This document shows positions 2,148 through 42,274 of a stretch of 64,000 bases of DNA, one piece after another. The DNA lies in IMG/VR virus record IMGVR_UViG_3300031772_000007, positions 1 to 64,000 of that record. One strand, written 5' to 3'. The notes beneath the pieces are model-generated. The model made no database searches and was not told where the DNA came from. It saw nothing but the letters and a program-made list of their open reading frames with translations. This DNA is from a virus. The position numbers and the translations under genes were made by a program. Each line of letters starts with the position of its first letter. Within the stretch, counting starts at the first letter, position 1.

Positions 2148-4397
2148 TCAGATTTCCGAGTCCGCAACCCAGTGGCCGCTCAGGTCGTCCCCGACCACCG
2201 GGGCACCCGCGGTGTTCAGCACCTCGAAGTTGCGGCGGGTGGGCTGGAACTCCGCGACGGCGATGAGCGTGACGGCGTTCTTGCGCCAGCTCCCCGTTCC
2301 ACCTGCCACGTTGTCGTAGAAGGTGAAGGTCGGAATGCGCCACTTCGGAGCACAGAACGCGATGCGCGGAGCGAACCGGGCGTTGTTGAGAGTCAGCGCA
2401 TCGACGCCCAGCGCTGTGACGGTCGCCGGGTCGGTGTCAACCTCGTAGGACTTCTCGAAGAAGCGCTGGCAGAGCGCCAGCTCGCCCTCGTAGCTTCCGC
2501 CTGCCCAGGCGAAGAAGCCCGTCGTCGCCCCGGCCCGCTGCACCTGGACGAGGGTGACGGAGAAGTTGTCCGTCGCCCCACCCACCCCGGTCGGGGTATG
2601 GACGAACAGGAGGCCGAGACAGGTGGCGTTGTTCGGCAAGGTGACACCTGCGGTGACGGTGAACACCCCGCCAGCCGACACGTCAGAATCGACGAGCACC
2701 GTGTTCCCGGTGGCGTAGGCCGCGCCGCCAGCGAACAGCGTCTCGCTGGTCGCCCCGGTGCCGTAGATGAGCTTGGCGTGCAGGGTGCCGGTGAAGCCCG
2801 CCCCCTTGCCGATGACGAAGGACGCCTGGAGGGTCTGCGTGAGCTGCGCGGAGCGGTGCAACAGGTCGCGGTCAATCTCTTGGCAGAGGTAGCGCGGAGC
2901 CGCCGATGCCTCTGCCGGACCGCGCTGCACCTGGAGGAAGTTGGTGCCCAGGACGGGGTACTTCGTGAGGACGCCCGCGCCCGCGGGGTCACTGTGCCAG
3001 GCGTGCCACCTGTCGGCCAAGAAGACCTGCGGGGTGTTACCGAAGTTGACCGGCCCGACCCCACGCTGCCAGAAGTCCATCTTGCCGTTGATGGCGAGGT
3101 TGGGCGACGCCATCGAGTCCACGTAGCCCTTGTTCGCCGCGTCGTGCCCGTCCACCGGGTCGGAGACTCCCTGAATGGCGCGGTAGTGGAAGAACGACAT
3201 CAGGTTGCCGGTCGTCGGGTCGATGCTCCACGTCGGCAGACCGTTGGCTACGAGGAGCAGCGGGTGGTTCGTCACCGAACCCATCAGCACGACGCCCGAG
3301 GGGTCGATGGGCTGCACCGTGGCGACGACCTGCCCGCCGCCAGCTCGGCTTTCGAGGAGGAGCGTTCCGTCCCCGTTGATGTAGCCGACCGTCTGCCCGG
3401 CTCCGTTCAGGATGTGAACCGCTCGCGTGGTCGCGTCAGGGGTTTGCAGCTTAAGGACGTGCCGACCAGGGACGGCGGACTTCAGGTACACCGTGTCAGG
3501 GATGGGGGTGGGACTCGCCGCGTCCACTCGAACGGCGTTGGGGAGCGCCCCAACTGGCGGACCGATGATGAGGTAGGGCTCGGCCAGCGTGCCGTCAGCT
3601 CCACCCACTCCGTCGAACCAGAGGTCGAAGCTGCCCGCGTAGGCTGCGCCCACCGCGCCAATCTGCCGCACGACGGTTCCAGGCGTCAGTGACGGGAGCG
3701 CGAGGTCGCTGACGTAGACCGCCTGCCCGAGCACCGCTCCGGGGATGGCGACGCCCTCGTACCGCCCGATGTAGCGCACTTGGATGAGGTCGCCCGGCGC
3801 GATGGCCCCGCCGCCCACCTTGCCGATGACGATGCACAGGGGTTGCTGCACGTCGAGCGCCGTCGTTGCGGTCGCCATGTCGAGGATGGGTAGGTTCTCC
3901 TGCCCCGGCAGGCCAATCTTGATGGCCTGCGTTCCAGTCATACGGACGATGTTGCCCGTTCCTGGGGTGCCTGCACCCGCGACGCCTACCATCACGCCGG
4001 GGTCGGCGAGCAGATGGTCGATGCGCTGGAGGTAGCCGTTGTTCGCCAGTGCCCAGCCTCGCGTCCCGTCCTCAACCGTCTCCCCCGCCGCCGGGATGCG
4101 CTCCCTCGTCTTGACTTGCCGCACCGCGCAGATGACTTGATTGCGCTGCTCGGTCGGCAGCGTGGCGTTGACCACCAGCTCGATGAGGTAGGTGCCCTCC
4201 TTCTTCGGCGTGAAGGTGGGATTCTGGAGCGTCGTCGAGGAAAGCGCGTCCGCCGTGCCCGCGGGCTGGTCGAGGACGCTCCACAGGTACGTCAGCTCCA
4301 ACCCGATGTTGGCGTTGTCGAGTTGGACGAGCAGGTTGATGGGCAGGTCGTTGTCGCTGCCCGGCGTGCCGTTCACAGTAATAAGAGCTTGGGGCAC
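2148..4397 (-). CDS. Large tail fibre protein
   Basis: 749 residues. The N-terminal ~100 residues resemble an Ig or PKD-like beta sandwich (ITVNGTPGSDN, then LTYLWSVLD and a GTYLIELVV strand). The middle is Gly/Ala-rich and beta-type. The C-terminal ~320 residues begin with an NLAINGKMDFWQRG motif, typical of the receptor-facing end of many phage fibres, which usually precedes a carbohydrate-binding jelly-roll. It lies beyond the baseplate genes and is the longest fibre candidate in the window. Host receptor binding is inferred. Confidence 0.75.
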   Translation of the reverse strand: MPQALITVNGTPGSDNDLPINLLVQLDNANIGLELTYLWSVLDQPAGTADALSSTTLQNPTFTPKKEGTYLIELVVNATLPTEQRNQVICAVRQVKTRERIPAAGETVEDGTRGWALANNGYLQRIDHLLADPGVMVGVAGAGTPGTGNIVRMTGTQAIKIGLPGQENLPILDMATATTALDVQQPLCIVIGKVGGGAIAPGDLIQVRYIGRYEGVAIPGAVLGQAVYVSDLALPSLTPGTVVRQIGAVGAAYAGSFDLWFDGVGGADGTLAEPYLIIGPPVGALPNAVRVDAASPTPIPDTVYLKSAVPGRHVLKLQTPDATTRAVHILNGAGQTVGYINGDGTLLLESRAGGGQVVATVQPIDPSGVVLMGSVTNHPLLLVANGLPTWSIDPTTGNLMSFFHYRAIQGVSDPVDGHDAANKGYVDSMASPNLAINGKMDFWQRGVGPVNFGNTPQVFLADRWHAWHSDPAGAGVLTKYPVLGTNFLQVQRGPAEASAAPRYLCQEIDRDLLHRSAQLTQTLQASFVIGKGAGFTGTLHAKLIYGTGATSETLFAGGAAYATGNTVLVDSDVSAGGVFTVTAGVTLPNNATCLGLLFVHTPTGVGGATDNFSVTLVQVQRAGATTGFFAWAGGSYEGELALCQRFFEKSYEVDTDPATVTALGVDALTLNNARFAPRIAFCAPKWRIPTFTFYDNVAGGTGSWRKNAVTLIAVAEFQPTRRNFEVLNTAGAPVVGDDLSGHWVADSEI

Positions 4398-22226: not shown

Positions 22227-22892
22227 CTACGCCAACGCAGCGGACTTTGCACGAACCGCTGCTTCGTCAATCCGCCGCTCGGCGCAGAACTGCACGAGGG
22301 TCTTTCTCCACTTCTGCGCGTTGCACGGGCGGCACGCTGGAACGACGTTGCCGGGGACGTTGTGCCCACCCTGATCGATGGCGTCGAGGTGTTCCATGTC
22401 GAGCAGCGCGCCGGTCGCACCGCAGAAGGCGCAGGCGTGCCCGTAGTGCTCAAGTGTTCGCACCCAGTCGATGAACTGGAAGGTGCTCGGGACGCCGAGC
22501 CGCTTGCATCGCGCGCTGTTGTTGTGAATCTGATTCATCTGCCTGCGGCGCTCCGGGTCGCGTTGCTTGTACGCGAGCTGCCACGCGCGCTGCCTCGCCT
22601 TGTTTTCGGGGCTCTTGTTGACCCACTCTTTGAATTGCTCGTATCGCTTCTTGTGGAAGCGCAGCTTCTCATCCGCGGGCAAGTTCTTGATTCGCGCGTG
22701 GTCACGTTCATCCTTGGCCCGCCGAAGGTCCTCGGGAAGCGCACGCCGCCACTCCTTCGCCGCCTCGCGCGTGCAGTTGATGCAGTGCCCGGAGTAGCCG
22801 TCCGAACTCTGCCCCGACTTATAGAAGTTGCCCCCGGCCAGCTTGGTTTCGCTGCACCGGGGGCATCTCTTAGTTCCGTCTGGGTTGAGCAT
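22227..22892 (-). CDS. HNH endonuclease, homing type
   Basis: 221 residues. An N-terminal zinc-ribbon-like part has C10, C13, C37 and C40. A long charged helical linker follows. The HNH core is C154, C157, H168 (in LDMEHLDAIDQGG), N182 and C187/C190. This layout matches recombination or homing endonucleases found free-standing in phages. It separates the capsid gene from the neck genes, which are normally adjacent, so it looks like an insertion. A 7-bp hairpin covers the region directly upstream of its start. Confidence 0.85.
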   Translation of the reverse strand: MLNPDGTKRCPRCSETKLAGGNFYKSGQSSDGYSGHCINCTREAAKEWRRALPEDLRRAKDERDHARIKNLPADEKLRFHKKRYEQFKEWVNKSPENKARQRAWQLAYKQRDPERRRQMNQIHNNSARCKRLGVPSTFQFIDWVRTLEHYGHACAFCGATGALLDMEHLDAIDQGGHNVPGNVVPACRPCNAQKWRKTLVQFCAERRIDEAAVRAKSAALA

Positions 22893-22936: not shown

Positions 22937-24349
22937 TCACTCACCGTGCATAACAACGCAGGTGCGCTTGATACGCGCGGCGTCGCCGGTCGCGGAGTCG
23001 GTCCTCACCGGCCAATCTCCTATGAACTTCCAGGTAGTGCTCACCATGTCCTGGAGCCGGTTCAACGGCGCGCGGATGATGAGCTGGATGCGGTCGCTCA
23101 TCACCTCGATGCTGTTGTTGGTGATCTTCGGCTCGGCCACCCGACCCGTCACTCCGGCGTCGGTGATGAGGTTCATCAGGTCCTGGTAGTACTCGTGGAT
23201 GAGTCCCTGACCCACGAAGATCGCCCGGTGGACCTTCACGCCACCGACCGCGCCCGTGTTGTAGAGTTCCGGCGCGAACGGATCGTCCTGGGAGTACGTC
23301 GCGGTGAGCCCGCCGTCCACAGTTTCGGGAACGGGGCACTCGCTGTTGCGGAAGAAGATGGCTCCGAGCAGCTTGCCGATGGCGAACTCGCTGTAGATGA
23401 AGTAGTCGGGCAGCGAGGTCAGGAGGCGCTGGAACTCGGGGTCGGCGTAGATCTGCGCTTCCGAGGTGGGGTCCAGGTGGCAGTGGAAATACTTGTCCGG
23501 CTGCTCCGGGACGTTCTCCTGACGGAACCGCGCCATCGCGGAGCGGATGTCCGCGAGCCGCAGCAGGTCGGACGAGCCGATGTCGTCCACCTTGAGTCCG
23601 CCACCGACCCGCACGATGAAGGTGCGGTCCGCGGCGTACACGTAGTCGCGGTCGTTGACCGTGACGTTGCCGCCGGTCAGGGTGATGGTGCCGGGGCCAG
23701 ACTCGTCGCCCGGGGTGTCCGGCGTGAAGCCGACGATGTTCCGGGTGACCGGAGCCGGAGGACCCGTCCGGTCGAGGATGGTGACGACCAGCGGGTTGCC
23801 GCTGGACACGGGGTCGAACCGGACCGGCGAACCGGTCGGCAGGCTCGGGTTGCGCGCACGGGTGAAGCCGTTGAGGCGCTTCACGCGAAGCACGCTCACC
23901 GCGGTCTGCGCGGTGTCGGTCACGGTCCAGCCACTCTCCGCCGCGTTGTAGAGCTTGTTGCGGGTGATCCGGTTCATCGCCTGCGCCGCCGAGAGCCCGA
24001 GCTGCTGGGCGTTACGGAGGAACAGGTTGACGATGGACACGATGCTGTCCGGCATCCGGGTGTCGATGCTGTCCGCGTACTGCTGCAGCTGCGCGGACCA
24101 CTGCTCCGAGGTGTAGCTTGACGGCTCGGGGTCGGTGTTCGGCACCAGCGGGCGCATCTTCGGCTTGATGAGTCCCGCCCCGGTGAAGCTCATCGTGTCG
24201 CCCACGTTCGCGGGCCACAGGACCGGAGCTGCCTCGCCGCGGAAGAGCATGCGGGGGAACAGCGCATCGTGGAAAGCCCTCTCCAGCATGTTCTGCTGAA
24301 CCAGGGCACGCATCTGCGGGGTCTGGGTGATCGTTGAGAAGTCGGGCAT
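22937..24349 (-). CDS. Major capsid protein
   Basis: 470 residues. The N-terminal region (MRALVQQNMLERAFHDALFP), the GDTMSFTGAG strand and the C-terminal LMNLITDAGVTGRVAEPKIT resemble large HK97-fold capsid proteins, possibly of the N4 gp56-like group. A likely scaffold gene lies directly upstream and neck genes downstream. The ATG at 24349 has GAGGA ten bases before it, and that site lies inside the arm of a 15-bp inverted repeat. Confidence 0.8.
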   Translation of the reverse strand: MPDFSTITQTPQMRALVQQNMLERAFHDALFPRMLFRGEAAPVLWPANVGDTMSFTGAGLIKPKMRPLVPNTDPEPSSYTSEQWSAQLQQYADSIDTRMPDSIVSIVNLFLRNAQQLGLSAAQAMNRITRNKLYNAAESGWTVTDTAQTAVSVLRVKRLNGFTRARNPSLPTGSPVRFDPVSSGNPLVVTILDRTGPPAPVTRNIVGFTPDTPGDESGPGTITLTGGNVTVNDRDYVYAADRTFIVRVGGGLKVDDIGSSDLLRLADIRSAMARFRQENVPEQPDKYFHCHLDPTSEAQIYADPEFQRLLTSLPDYFIYSEFAIGKLLGAIFFRNSECPVPETVDGGLTATYSQDDPFAPELYNTGAVGGVKVHRAIFVGQGLIHEYYQDLMNLITDAGVTGRVAEPKITNNSIEVMSDRIQLIIRAPLNRLQDMVSTTWKFIGDWPVRTDSATGDAARIKRTCVVMHGE

Positions 24350-24350
24350 T

Positions 24351-24441
24351 TTGGCTACGTCCTCGCTGGTTAGGGTTTCCGGTACGGCATCCTCTCACAA
24401 AGCACTTCAAAAACTCCAGCCTGAAACGAGGACGTAGCCAA
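24351..24441 (-). promoter_or_regulatory. 15-bp inverted repeat in the capsid gene leader
   Basis: TTGGCTACGTCCTCG (24351-24365 on +) is exactly complementary to the stretch at 24427-24441; the arms are 61 bases apart. In leftward mRNA the second arm contains the GAGGA ribosome-binding site of the capsid gene and ends two bases before its ATG. The folded form would hide the site, and the first arm lies in the spacer after the scaffold stop. It may set the scaffold to capsid ratio or be a processing site. The repeat is seen directly; the role is inferred. Confidence 0.55.
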
Positions 24442-24451
24442 CCCCTCTCCG

Positions 24452-25303
24452 CTACAGCGTCGGGTTGAACCCCCACTTCGCCATCTCGCGTTGAACTTCG
24501 TCAGGCTTCGCGTTCCGTGCATCGAACGCTCCCGCCTTCGCTCCGTTCTGCGTGGTAGCGCCTGGCTTCGGCGCAGGTGGCGTTGCTACCGTTCCCGTTC
24601 CGGTGGTGATCGGCTGCGTGGCCTCGCCGAACAGGTAGGGCTTCTCCGCCTTCAGCGCGTCGAAGTACGCCCGCTCGTCGAAGTTTTGCAGCTCTGCCTC
24701 GGGCACAGTCTCCAGCTTGCGCGTGAGCAGCCGCAAGCAGTAGTCCACGTCCTTGGCTCCGCAGGCGACCGCGACCTCCCTGAGCGCCATTTCGGCGTCC
24801 TTCGCGTCGAGCTGCGCTTGCAGCTCCTTCACCTGCCGGGTCGCATCAGAAGCTCGCGCCACTGCGGCGTCCCGGTCCCTCTGGTACTTCTCCAGGTCAC
24901 GCTGATACTTCGCAGTCGCTCGCTGGTCGTCCTTGACGTTGCTGCCCGGCGCGGGTGGCGTCAGTGGCTCGGTCTTGGGCGGTTCCTGCCGGGGCTCCGC
25001 GGGTGCCTGCCCCGTCTTCAGCTTCTGGAGCGCCGCCACCATCTCGGTGTGCGAGCTGTACCCAGCCGCCTCGGCCAGAGCTTGCAGTGCCTCGTTCCTG
25101 CCCTTCTCGTACTCCTCCTGCCTGATGCGTGCCATCGCCGCATGCGGGATGGTGGTTACCTGCCCACGCGCCGTCTGCTCAACCTCACGCTGCGGGGGTG
25201 CCGCGGGCGAAGGGGGAGCAGCCGGTGGGGTCGCCGTGATGGGCGGCTCAACCGGAGCTTGAGGTGCGGGGATTGCTACGGGGTTGTTCGGGTCCACAGG
25301 CAT
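24452..25303 (-). CDS. Scaffolding protein candidate
   Basis: 283 residues from ATG 25303, which has GAGGAGAAG upstream; a GTG at 25339 is an alternative. The N-terminus is rich in Pro and Ala, the centre (about residues 125-190) is a charged coiled coil (KYQRDLEKYQRDRDAAVARA), and the C-terminus is a short charged tail. That is the typical make-up of phage scaffolds, and it directly precedes the capsid gene. It would guide shell assembly and then leave. Confidence 0.7.
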   Translation of the reverse strand: MPVDPNNPVAIPAPQAPVEPPITATPPAAPPSPAAPPQREVEQTARGQVTTIPHAAMARIRQEEYEKGRNEALQALAEAAGYSSHTEMVAALQKLKTGQAPAEPRQEPPKTEPLTPPAPGSNVKDDQRATAKYQRDLEKYQRDRDAAVARASDATRQVKELQAQLDAKDAEMALREVAVACGAKDVDYCLRLLTRKLETVPEAELQNFDERAYFDALKAEKPYLFGEATQPITTGTGTVATPPAPKPGATTQNGAKAGAFDARNAKPDEVQREMAKWGFNPTL

Positions 25304-25412
25304 CGCTTCTTCTCCTCGTACTGTCTCCGACTCGTTCACCGCCTGTCGTCTGCGTGGTGAGGTGGTCGAAGCAGCCTGGCAATTCCCGGGGGTGCTCTCC
25401 CGGTACGGTTAA

Positions 25413-40717: not shown

Positions 40718-42274
40718 CTACCGGCGCACCACGTCCAAGTGGGTCTGCACCGCCTTGAGCGCGCCGAGGCGCACGCCCTCCCGCGCGAACCAGCTCGCCA
40801 TGAGGCGGTCCCCGGTGTGCGCCCGCGGGTCATAGAACAGCATCTCGTTCACCCACTCGTAGAGCTGCGGGTGGAGGCTGCCGTCCGTGTTGGGGATGAT
40901 CCACTTCCGCCCCGCCATCTCCGCCGCGATGGACTCAATGCCGAATTCAGGGTGCGCCTTGTTCCTGCCCGTCGTGAACGCCCTGATCGGCACCGCGAAG
41001 TCCCGCCGTGCGAACTGGATGATGAAGTCCTGCGCCGCGTTGTTCTCCACGATGCAGATGGAGAAGTAGCGCCGATGGTGGTCGATGATCTTCAGGATGA
41101 TTTCCGGCCCAGCCCAACGTCCCGCCTCGACGTTCAACACCTCGCGGTCGCCGTTCGGGTGCGCCGCGATGGTGAACAGGCAGGTGAGGTCCGCGCCGTC
41201 CTTCTGTTGCACCGCCAGGTCCACCCCGGTGTACGTCTTGATGCCGTTCGGTAGCGCCTGGAGCCCGTGGCAGAGCCGCTTCCCATTCCCGCGCTCCAAG
41301 CACCAGCCCACCCACTCCTTGCGGAAGCGCGCTTCCTCATCGCTTCGGGCGACGCAGAGCATCGTGCGCGCGAACTCCAACGGCCCCCGCTCCTCCTTCA
41401 CCCGCTGGATGCGCTCCATCGGCCACCGCTCGGGCCAACGCGGCTGCCCGTCGTCCCCCAGCACCGGGTAGCGCATCGCCACCCACCCTGGGAGCTTCGC
41501 CAGCCGGTGGAGGGCGTCATCTGGGTGGAAGGCGGTCCCAATCACCAGCACCCGCGCCTTCGCCGTGAGACGGGAGAAGAGGGACGCCTGAATCCACTGG
41601 AAGCAGTCCTCCCGCATCTTGGCGGAGCGGGTGTTCTCCGTGTCGAGGAGGTCGTCCACGATGAGGATGTCGATGCGGCTTCCCAGCACGTTGCCGTGGA
41701 CGCCGAGGGTCTGCACGCTCGGGTCCTTGCTCTGGTAGGGGCGCGCAATCGTGATGGCACGGCTGGTCCACTGCTCCTTGCCAGGACGAAGCTCGGGGAA
41801 GACGGCGTGCAGCTCCGGGCTCGCCTCGATGTACCGCTTGATGGTGCGGAGGATCTTGTCCGCCTGCCCCGCAGTGTTACTGACAACGGCCACGCGGAGC
41901 GTCGGGTCCTGCCCAAGAAGCCAGAGCGTCCGGGCAATCGCCACCTGCCACGTCTTGCCCGACTCGACCGAACTCCAGATGATAAGCCGGTCGTGCAGCT
42001 CCGCCAGCTCGTGCCAGGCGACGTGGCAGGAGGCTTGGTCCAGCGGGAGCCCCGTCTTCTCGTCCCGCATGACCGCGGTGGAGAAGGCGTCGATGTCAAT
42101 GCGCGCCGCTTCGACCAGCTCCCGGTTCAGGAAGGCGTCCGCCTCGGGGTCGAACTCCAGCTCGTCGGGGATGGCGGTCACGGTCGGAGGCATTCCAGCA
42201 GGCCAGCCCTGCGCGTCAGCTCTTCCCAGCCCCCGTTTGAGGATGTTGTTCAGCCCCAGATGTTGGACCAGCAC
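40718..42274 (-). CDS. terL: Large terminase subunit
   Basis: 518 residues from GTG 42274, which has AAGGAGG five bases before it. The ATPase domain has Walker A SSVESGKT (101-108) and Walker B ILIVDDLLD (203-211), with a coupling-type segment RVLVIGTAFH around 241-250. The nuclease domain starts with TYTGVDLAVQQKDGAD (D352 likely metal ligand). It cuts and pumps DNA into the prohead at the portal. It overlaps the end of the small subunit gene by 59 bases. Confidence 0.92.
   Translation of the reverse strand: MLVQHLGLNNILKRGLGRADAQGWPAGMPPTVTAIPDELEFDPEADAFLNRELVEAARIDIDAFSTAVMRDEKTGLPLDQASCHVAWHELAELHDRLIIWSSVESGKTWQVAIARTLWLLGQDPTLRVAVVSNTAGQADKILRTIKRYIEASPELHAVFPELRPGKEQWTSRAITIARPYQSKDPSVQTLGVHGNVLGSRIDILIVDDLLDTENTRSAKMREDCFQWIQASLFSRLTAKARVLVIGTAFHPDDALHRLAKLPGWVAMRYPVLGDDGQPRWPERWPMERIQRVKEERGPLEFARTMLCVARSDEEARFRKEWVGWCLERGNGKRLCHGLQALPNGIKTYTGVDLAVQQKDGADLTCLFTIAAHPNGDREVLNVEAGRWAGPEIILKIIDHHRRYFSICIVENNAAQDFIIQFARRDFAVPIRAFTTGRNKAHPEFGIESIAAEMAGRKWIIPNTDGSLHPQLYEWVNEMLFYDPRAHTGDRLMASWFAREGVRLGALKAVQTHLDVVRR

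Follow-up and report, generated by a model that had tools for sequence, protein, structure and literature searches.

In phage T4, a helix that hides the ribosome-binding site (RBS) forms on the long early transcripts of e (lysozyme), soc, 49 and I-TevI, genes that also have a nested late promoter, and the synthesis of e from long transcripts is lowered about 100-fold (PMC3014915, PMC2988022). RBS-hiding hairpins are likewise found at the homing endonuclease genes segB of T4 and mobE of phage Aeh1 (PMC2988022). Termination-reinitiation coupling depends on genes that overlap or lie very close together; reinitiation drops sharply with distance, and in E. coli a separation of 38 nt already costs at least 80-90% of it (PMC10666635).

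For the head genes of tailed phages, it is a standing question how far more capsid than scaffold is made from neighbouring genes, and how this is correctly timed. Here, the gap between the scaffold and capsid genes of an uncultured tailed phage is analysed, together with the equivalent gaps of its relatives.

The scaffold-capsid gap and its inverted repeat

The window, meaning the whole stretch of DNA analysed, is 64 kb out of a 93.8-kb IMG/VR virus record. The features of the locus are as follows.

22937-24349, minus strand: major capsid gene, 470 aa (PHROG 1357 major head protein, E 3.4e-13); AUG at 24349-24347
24351-24365, minus strand: 3' arm of the stem, RNA 5'-CGAGGACGUAGCCAA, which includes the capsid Shine-Dalgarno sequence (SD) GAGGA
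24366-24426, minus strand: loop of 61 nt with a weak inner helix; position of the putative sigma70-like promoter in relatives
24389-24418, minus strand: weak and uncertain candidate promoter, TGGAGT (24418-24413), 18 nt, GAGGAT (24394-24389); not a consensus match
24427-24441, minus strand: 5' arm of the stem, RNA 5'-UUGGCUACGUCCUCG, able to pair with the capsid SD region
24452-25339, minus strand: scaffolding protein gene (PHROG 194 head scaffolding, E 2.3e-8); stop codon at 24454-24452

The scaffold gene product also reaches 34.7 bits against Pfam PF06810, just under the cut-off of 35. The two genes are separated by 102 nt on the minus strand, and the arms at 24351-24365 and 24427-24441 form the sole inverted repeat that a repeat search finds in 24000-25000. 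The arms are 15 nt long, 100% complementary and 61 nt apart, exactly as in the original prediction, which had placed GAGGA in the capsid-proximal arm and the other arm 61 bases upstream, between the scaffold stop and the capsid start. GAGGA lies at 24364-24360, 10 nt upstream of the AUG. The 5' arm begins 10 nt past the scaffold stop and is lengthened to 24425 by G-U pairing; once G-U and flanking pairs are counted, the helix comprises 17 bp plus a short inner helix.

A chance origin, already held improbable in the original prediction, is disfavoured by the numbers: the 64 kb contain one perfect 15-bp inverted repeat with a loop of at most 120 nt against a shuffle mean of 0.1, and in 3,000 shuffles the 102-nt gap never yields even a 12-bp perfect inverted repeat. 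The folding check gives the same picture. The minus-strand RNA has a predicted fold of -53.5 kcal/mol against -38.9 for shuffles (z -3.84), equalled by 0/200 shuffles, and the predicted pairing probability of the capsid SD in the long RNA is 0.99-1.00. Rfam 15 covariance models find no match in 24200-24600 up to E 1. The arm sequence has no second copy in the 93.8-kb record at up to one mismatch, and two other repeats considered as second cases of the pattern were dropped, since one (41940-42034) sits within the terminase gene and the other (4225-4283) has no adjoining gene start. The loop also holds a small open frame, AUG CCG UAC CGG AAA CCC UAA (24371-24391, minus strand), with GAGAGG closely before it; inspection by eye found no consistent counterpart in the loops of relatives.

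Two kinds of gap among the relatives

An exact search for the arms in viral contigs returned single matches only, with no listed stretch carrying both arms and no close relative of the window. The capsid protein of the window has relatives that are 56-72% identical to it. After viral contigs had been scanned twice and genome contigs once, 78 further relatives had an upstream region available, and selection tests were run on 61 non-redundant loci. The scaffold-capsid gap is 33-153 nt in the first relative set. The phages Kromp and phiKX1 were rejected for comparison as too distant (27-30% capsid identity); the gap of Kromp is 4 nt, and phiKX1 has no SD-hiding stem. Two contigs from metagenome-assembled genomes, assigned to Methylocystis sp. 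(L086, 40% identical in capsid) and Armatimonadetes (L085, 60%), are possible prophages or misbinned phages and give the sole host hint for the group.

By eye, the gaps are of two kinds. In most long gaps, the stretch following the scaffold stop can pair with the SD region; the 5' arm usually starts 2-20 nt past the stop, and the perfect stem is only 7-12 bp in many relatives. Short gaps, of about 35-60 nt, have a small hairpin ahead of a mostly free SD. One clade of the second kind (L014, L016, L017, L018, L022 and L030) has gaps of 42-59 nt, no SD-hiding stem, a small hairpin and a mostly free SD; it often carries TTGACG or CTGACA directly after the scaffold stop and a -10-like box ~24-29 nt before the AUG.

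The sister of the window on the capsid tree, L013 (support 96/93), illustrates how the arms diverge. Its arms are CGUCCUCGUCUUGG and CCAAGACGAGGACG, against UUGGCUACGUCCUCG and CGAGGACGUAGCCAA in the window: the CGUCCUCG core is common, and the remainder differs on both sides yet still pairs. Elsewhere the gaps of L033 and L034 are near-identical across the 5' arm and inner part and differ in the last ~15 nt, the SD arm; L033 pairs well and L034 uses another register with 8 Watson-Crick pairs, possibly reflecting a recombination point at the capsid start. The gap of L353 contains competing strong nested hairpins, GGGCCGUGG...CCACGGCCC and GCACCCAU...GUGGGUGC, with TTGACG alongside.

An HNH or endonuclease VII-like gene lies directly after the capsid gene of the window (22227-22892, minus strand). 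HNH-type genes 28-44% similar occur within a few kb of the capsid gene in L012, L009, L016, L020, L080 and L015, which suggests that a mobile endonuclease has inserted repeatedly beside the capsid gene.

Maintenance of the stem

Pairing was measured between the last 24 nt before the AUG and the rest of the gap, the upstream part being shuffled for comparison. For gaps of at least 85 nt, the mean z is -3.1, with p < 0.05 in 19/25 loci. In a swap test, the upstream parts were exchanged among the 25 long-gap loci; because the pairing is re-optimised every time, this test is free of register bias. It gives z -10.3 (0/20,000), and a locus ranks its own partner first in 16/25 cases. Shorter-gap loci show an excess too (z -6.2), which comes partly from local hairpins.

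A whole-gap MAFFT alignment was too gappy for pair scoring. The SD instead served as the anchor for the arms, and constant letters were put in as spacers to keep the columns in register, so that the resulting pair counts lean to the chosen register: across 16 loci, 73.9% of cells are paired and 14/17 pairs have changes on both sides. The covariation score of these 16 anchored loci is 0.511, compared with 0.200 when shuffled and 0.12-0.20 when slid. Over 20 loci, each flank of the SD core pairs above permutation (0/20,000 apiece).

The pairing is specific to the capsid gene. Long-gap capsid starts have a mean z of -3.33, with 42% below -4; mechanically called tandem gene starts with long gaps elsewhere on the same contigs have a mean z of -0.17, and none falls below -4. 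The swap signal is less pronounced in a held-out set of 16 new non-redundant loci from further scans (z -1.5, n=5; z -2.7, n=7), of which L280, L361 and L351 have clear stems. On the capsid tree the stem is patchy, with at least 14 gains or losses for a stem label that depends on the threshold.

The pairing, swap, covariation and specificity tests therefore establish the stem as a real and maintained feature of the capsid start in long-gap loci. Comparison with related phages, on which the original prediction turned, has a divided outcome: short-gap lineages mostly have no stem, but where the stem is present its changes are compensated. The central proposal that the repeat hides the RBS is well supported, by predicted structure, by covariation in relatives and by specificity to the capsid start.

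A possible capsid message starting in the loop

Removal of the 5' arm is predicted to free the SD. In the window, opening the SD and AUG would cost 22.8 kcal/mol in the long RNA and 6.0 in a short RNA starting in the loop, which has no notable fold (z +1.5). The predicted mean for stem loci is 14.7 kcal/mol in the long RNA against 6.4 in the short, and for loci without the stem 7.7 against 6.3. In two loci the short RNA is predicted to bring no gain (4.8 vs 6.8 kcal/mol in L036, 8.1 vs 8.1 in L033).

Several relatives carry TTGACG or TTGACA and TAnnnT-like boxes in the loop, spaced 17-18 nt. They were scored by position with a sigma70 weight matrix built from approximate, self-made frequencies. 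For best sites whose -10 element ends 40-55 nt upstream of the AUG, a bin that had been spotted prior to testing, z is 8.5 over shuffles and 10 loci score at least 6 against 0.6 expected; the other bins range from z -1.4 to 2.3. The held-out set, the only one free of that bias, gives z 2.9 for the promoter segment (n=8, 0/200 shuffles) and nothing elsewhere. Taken together with no selection for the stem, the 27 loci whose gap is 80 nt or longer give z 6.0 for the segment from -84 to -40 against local shuffles, and the sense score exceeds the antisense in 23/27. Among stem loci, z is 6.5 against local shuffles, with a score of 4.3 in sense and -0.06 in antisense (20/22 loci). The predicted transcription start, 33-48 nt before the AUG, falls between the arms, with the 5' arm mostly upstream and the SD arm downstream; in the window it would lie at about 24382-24397 on the minus strand.

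Several relatives (L058 and L071) have a promoter-like site with no strong stem, and several others (L026, L041 and L012) have a stem but score weakly for the promoter. The loop of the window itself has no match to a consensus sigma70 promoter, and its sense score of -1.4 is lower than the antisense score of 1.2. The candidate TGGAGT-18-GAGGAT is marginal (p 0.037, leave-one-out group model). No sigma70 site scoring at least 11 occurs anywhere in the 64-kb window, and therefore its phage or host may use another promoter type. A nested promoter is thus indicated statistically for the group, and for the window itself we infer one.

Proposed mechanism

The best-supported mechanism, and one that we consider fairly probable, is a nested-promoter RBS lock at the capsid start. 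The stem would lock capsid translation in cis on read-through mRNA: when transcripts enter via the scaffold gene, their segment just past the scaffold stop would pair with the capsid SD region, so that these transcripts would yield scaffold and little capsid. A promoter in the loop would give rise to a second, shorter mRNA starting about 33-48 nt ahead of the capsid AUG. Since such an mRNA has no 5' arm, its SD would be free and it would supply the capsid protein. With the short mRNA free and the long mRNA locked, capsid output would thus follow its own promoter and be independent of transcription arriving from upstream. Scaffold and capsid are presumably both late, and the biological reason for the arrangement may be timing or the scaffold:capsid ratio.

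Tentatively, the group may share a two-message device that has been re-made many times with new sequences: a read-through mRNA would make scaffold only, a nested mRNA capsid only, and the scaffold:capsid ratio would be set by promoters, not by ribosome affinity, possibly with assembly feedback on the stem. If the lock is real, the supply of capsid over scaffold would be solved by concealing the ribosome site on the long message and placing a separate promoter in the loop. A caution would follow for sequence-based work, as neither operon structure nor SD strength alone could predict capsid output.

Alternative explanations

Translational coupling, in which ribosomes finishing scaffold open the stem and capsid is made only where scaffold is, would suit the closeness of the 5' arm to the scaffold stop, and capsid assembly requires scaffold. 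Masking 26 nt beyond the stop cuts the SD pairing of the window from 1.00 to 0.49; a ribosome running that far is thus modelled to open much of the stem. When a terminating ribosome is modelled by excluding everything as far as 11 nt beyond the stop from pairing (an assumed footprint), the SD remains paired in the majority of stem loci (1.00 in the window, 1.00 in L013, 0.93 in L003), the exceptions being L004, L041 and, partly, L024. The gap of 102 nt also sits poorly with the steep loss of reinitiation over distance (PMC10666635), and the promoter-like boxes of the loop are left unexplained. With the 5' arm mostly out beyond a ribosome halted at the scaffold stop, coupling by ribosomes is unlikely; as the main reading, its simple form was rejected after footprint masking. 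Release of the fold by a ribosome, which the original prediction had envisaged, accordingly has less behind it than the hiding of the site, since a ribosome ending at the scaffold stop misses the stem in most loci.

A cut by RNase III or another nuclease could separate the scaffold and capsid messages and free or stabilise the latter. RNA processing between late genes is known from T7, and the helix measures about 20 bp with flanking pairs and has internal irregularities. The SD, however, is inside this helix and could be damaged by such a cut, and the perfect stem is only 7-12 bp in many relatives. Processing is quite unlikely as an explanation.

As a feedback from head assembly, capsid translation might be switched on or off by something bound to the stem-loop: the capsid protein, the scaffold, a further phage factor or a host signal. 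Phages do use protein-bound RNA operators, such as those of T4 gp32 and gp43, and the loops often hold further helices. An alignment of 12 loci, however, shows neither sequence conservation in the loop nor an inner structure in common, promoter-like words excepted; with no Rfam match besides, an operator of this kind is distinctly improbable.

That the repeat has no regulatory role, being a by-product of chance or composition, is very improbable: some relatives do exist without it, but the gap shuffles (0/3,000 at 12 bp), the swap test (0/20,000) and the stem-free starts of other genes all speak against it. Terminal repeats of a mobile element were rejected because the arms vary between phages while their position stays fixed.

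Comparison with known systems

A nested-promoter lock remains the preferred reading, and it can be set against the described systems point by point. An RBS lock of the T4 type at a major capsid gene was not found in the open literature, which is weak evidence of novelty given that most subscription journals lay outside the scope of the search.

Like termination-reinitiation coupling, the locus has a downstream start next to an upstream stop; unlike it, the two are 102 nt apart, with the stem placed past the terminating ribosome. With segB and mobE it shares the arrangement of hairpin, late promoter and gene, here in putative form. Those are mobile endonuclease genes, whereas here the gene is structural, the stem standing before the capsid gene and the HNH gene after it.

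The likeness is closest to e, soc, 49 and I-TevI of T4. In both cases the SD and/or AUG lies in a stable helix on long transcripts (here predicted), and the SD of the short transcript is accessible (here predicted, at 6.0 kcal/mol to open). In T4 a promoter yields a transcript that lacks the 5' strand of the helix; here such a promoter is indicated statistically in relatives, held-out loci included, and is not recognisable in the window. The differences are that the gene is that of the major capsid protein, downstream of scaffold, in unrelated phages and known from sequence alone; that the loop is about 60-80 nt, with the promoter-like boxes mostly inside it; and that the promoter is sigma70-like, unlike the T4 late TATAAATA. 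If the lock is real, a mechanism that T4 is known to use for genes of lysis, decoration and mobile elements would also operate on the gene for the major capsid protein, in a diverse group of uncultured phages.
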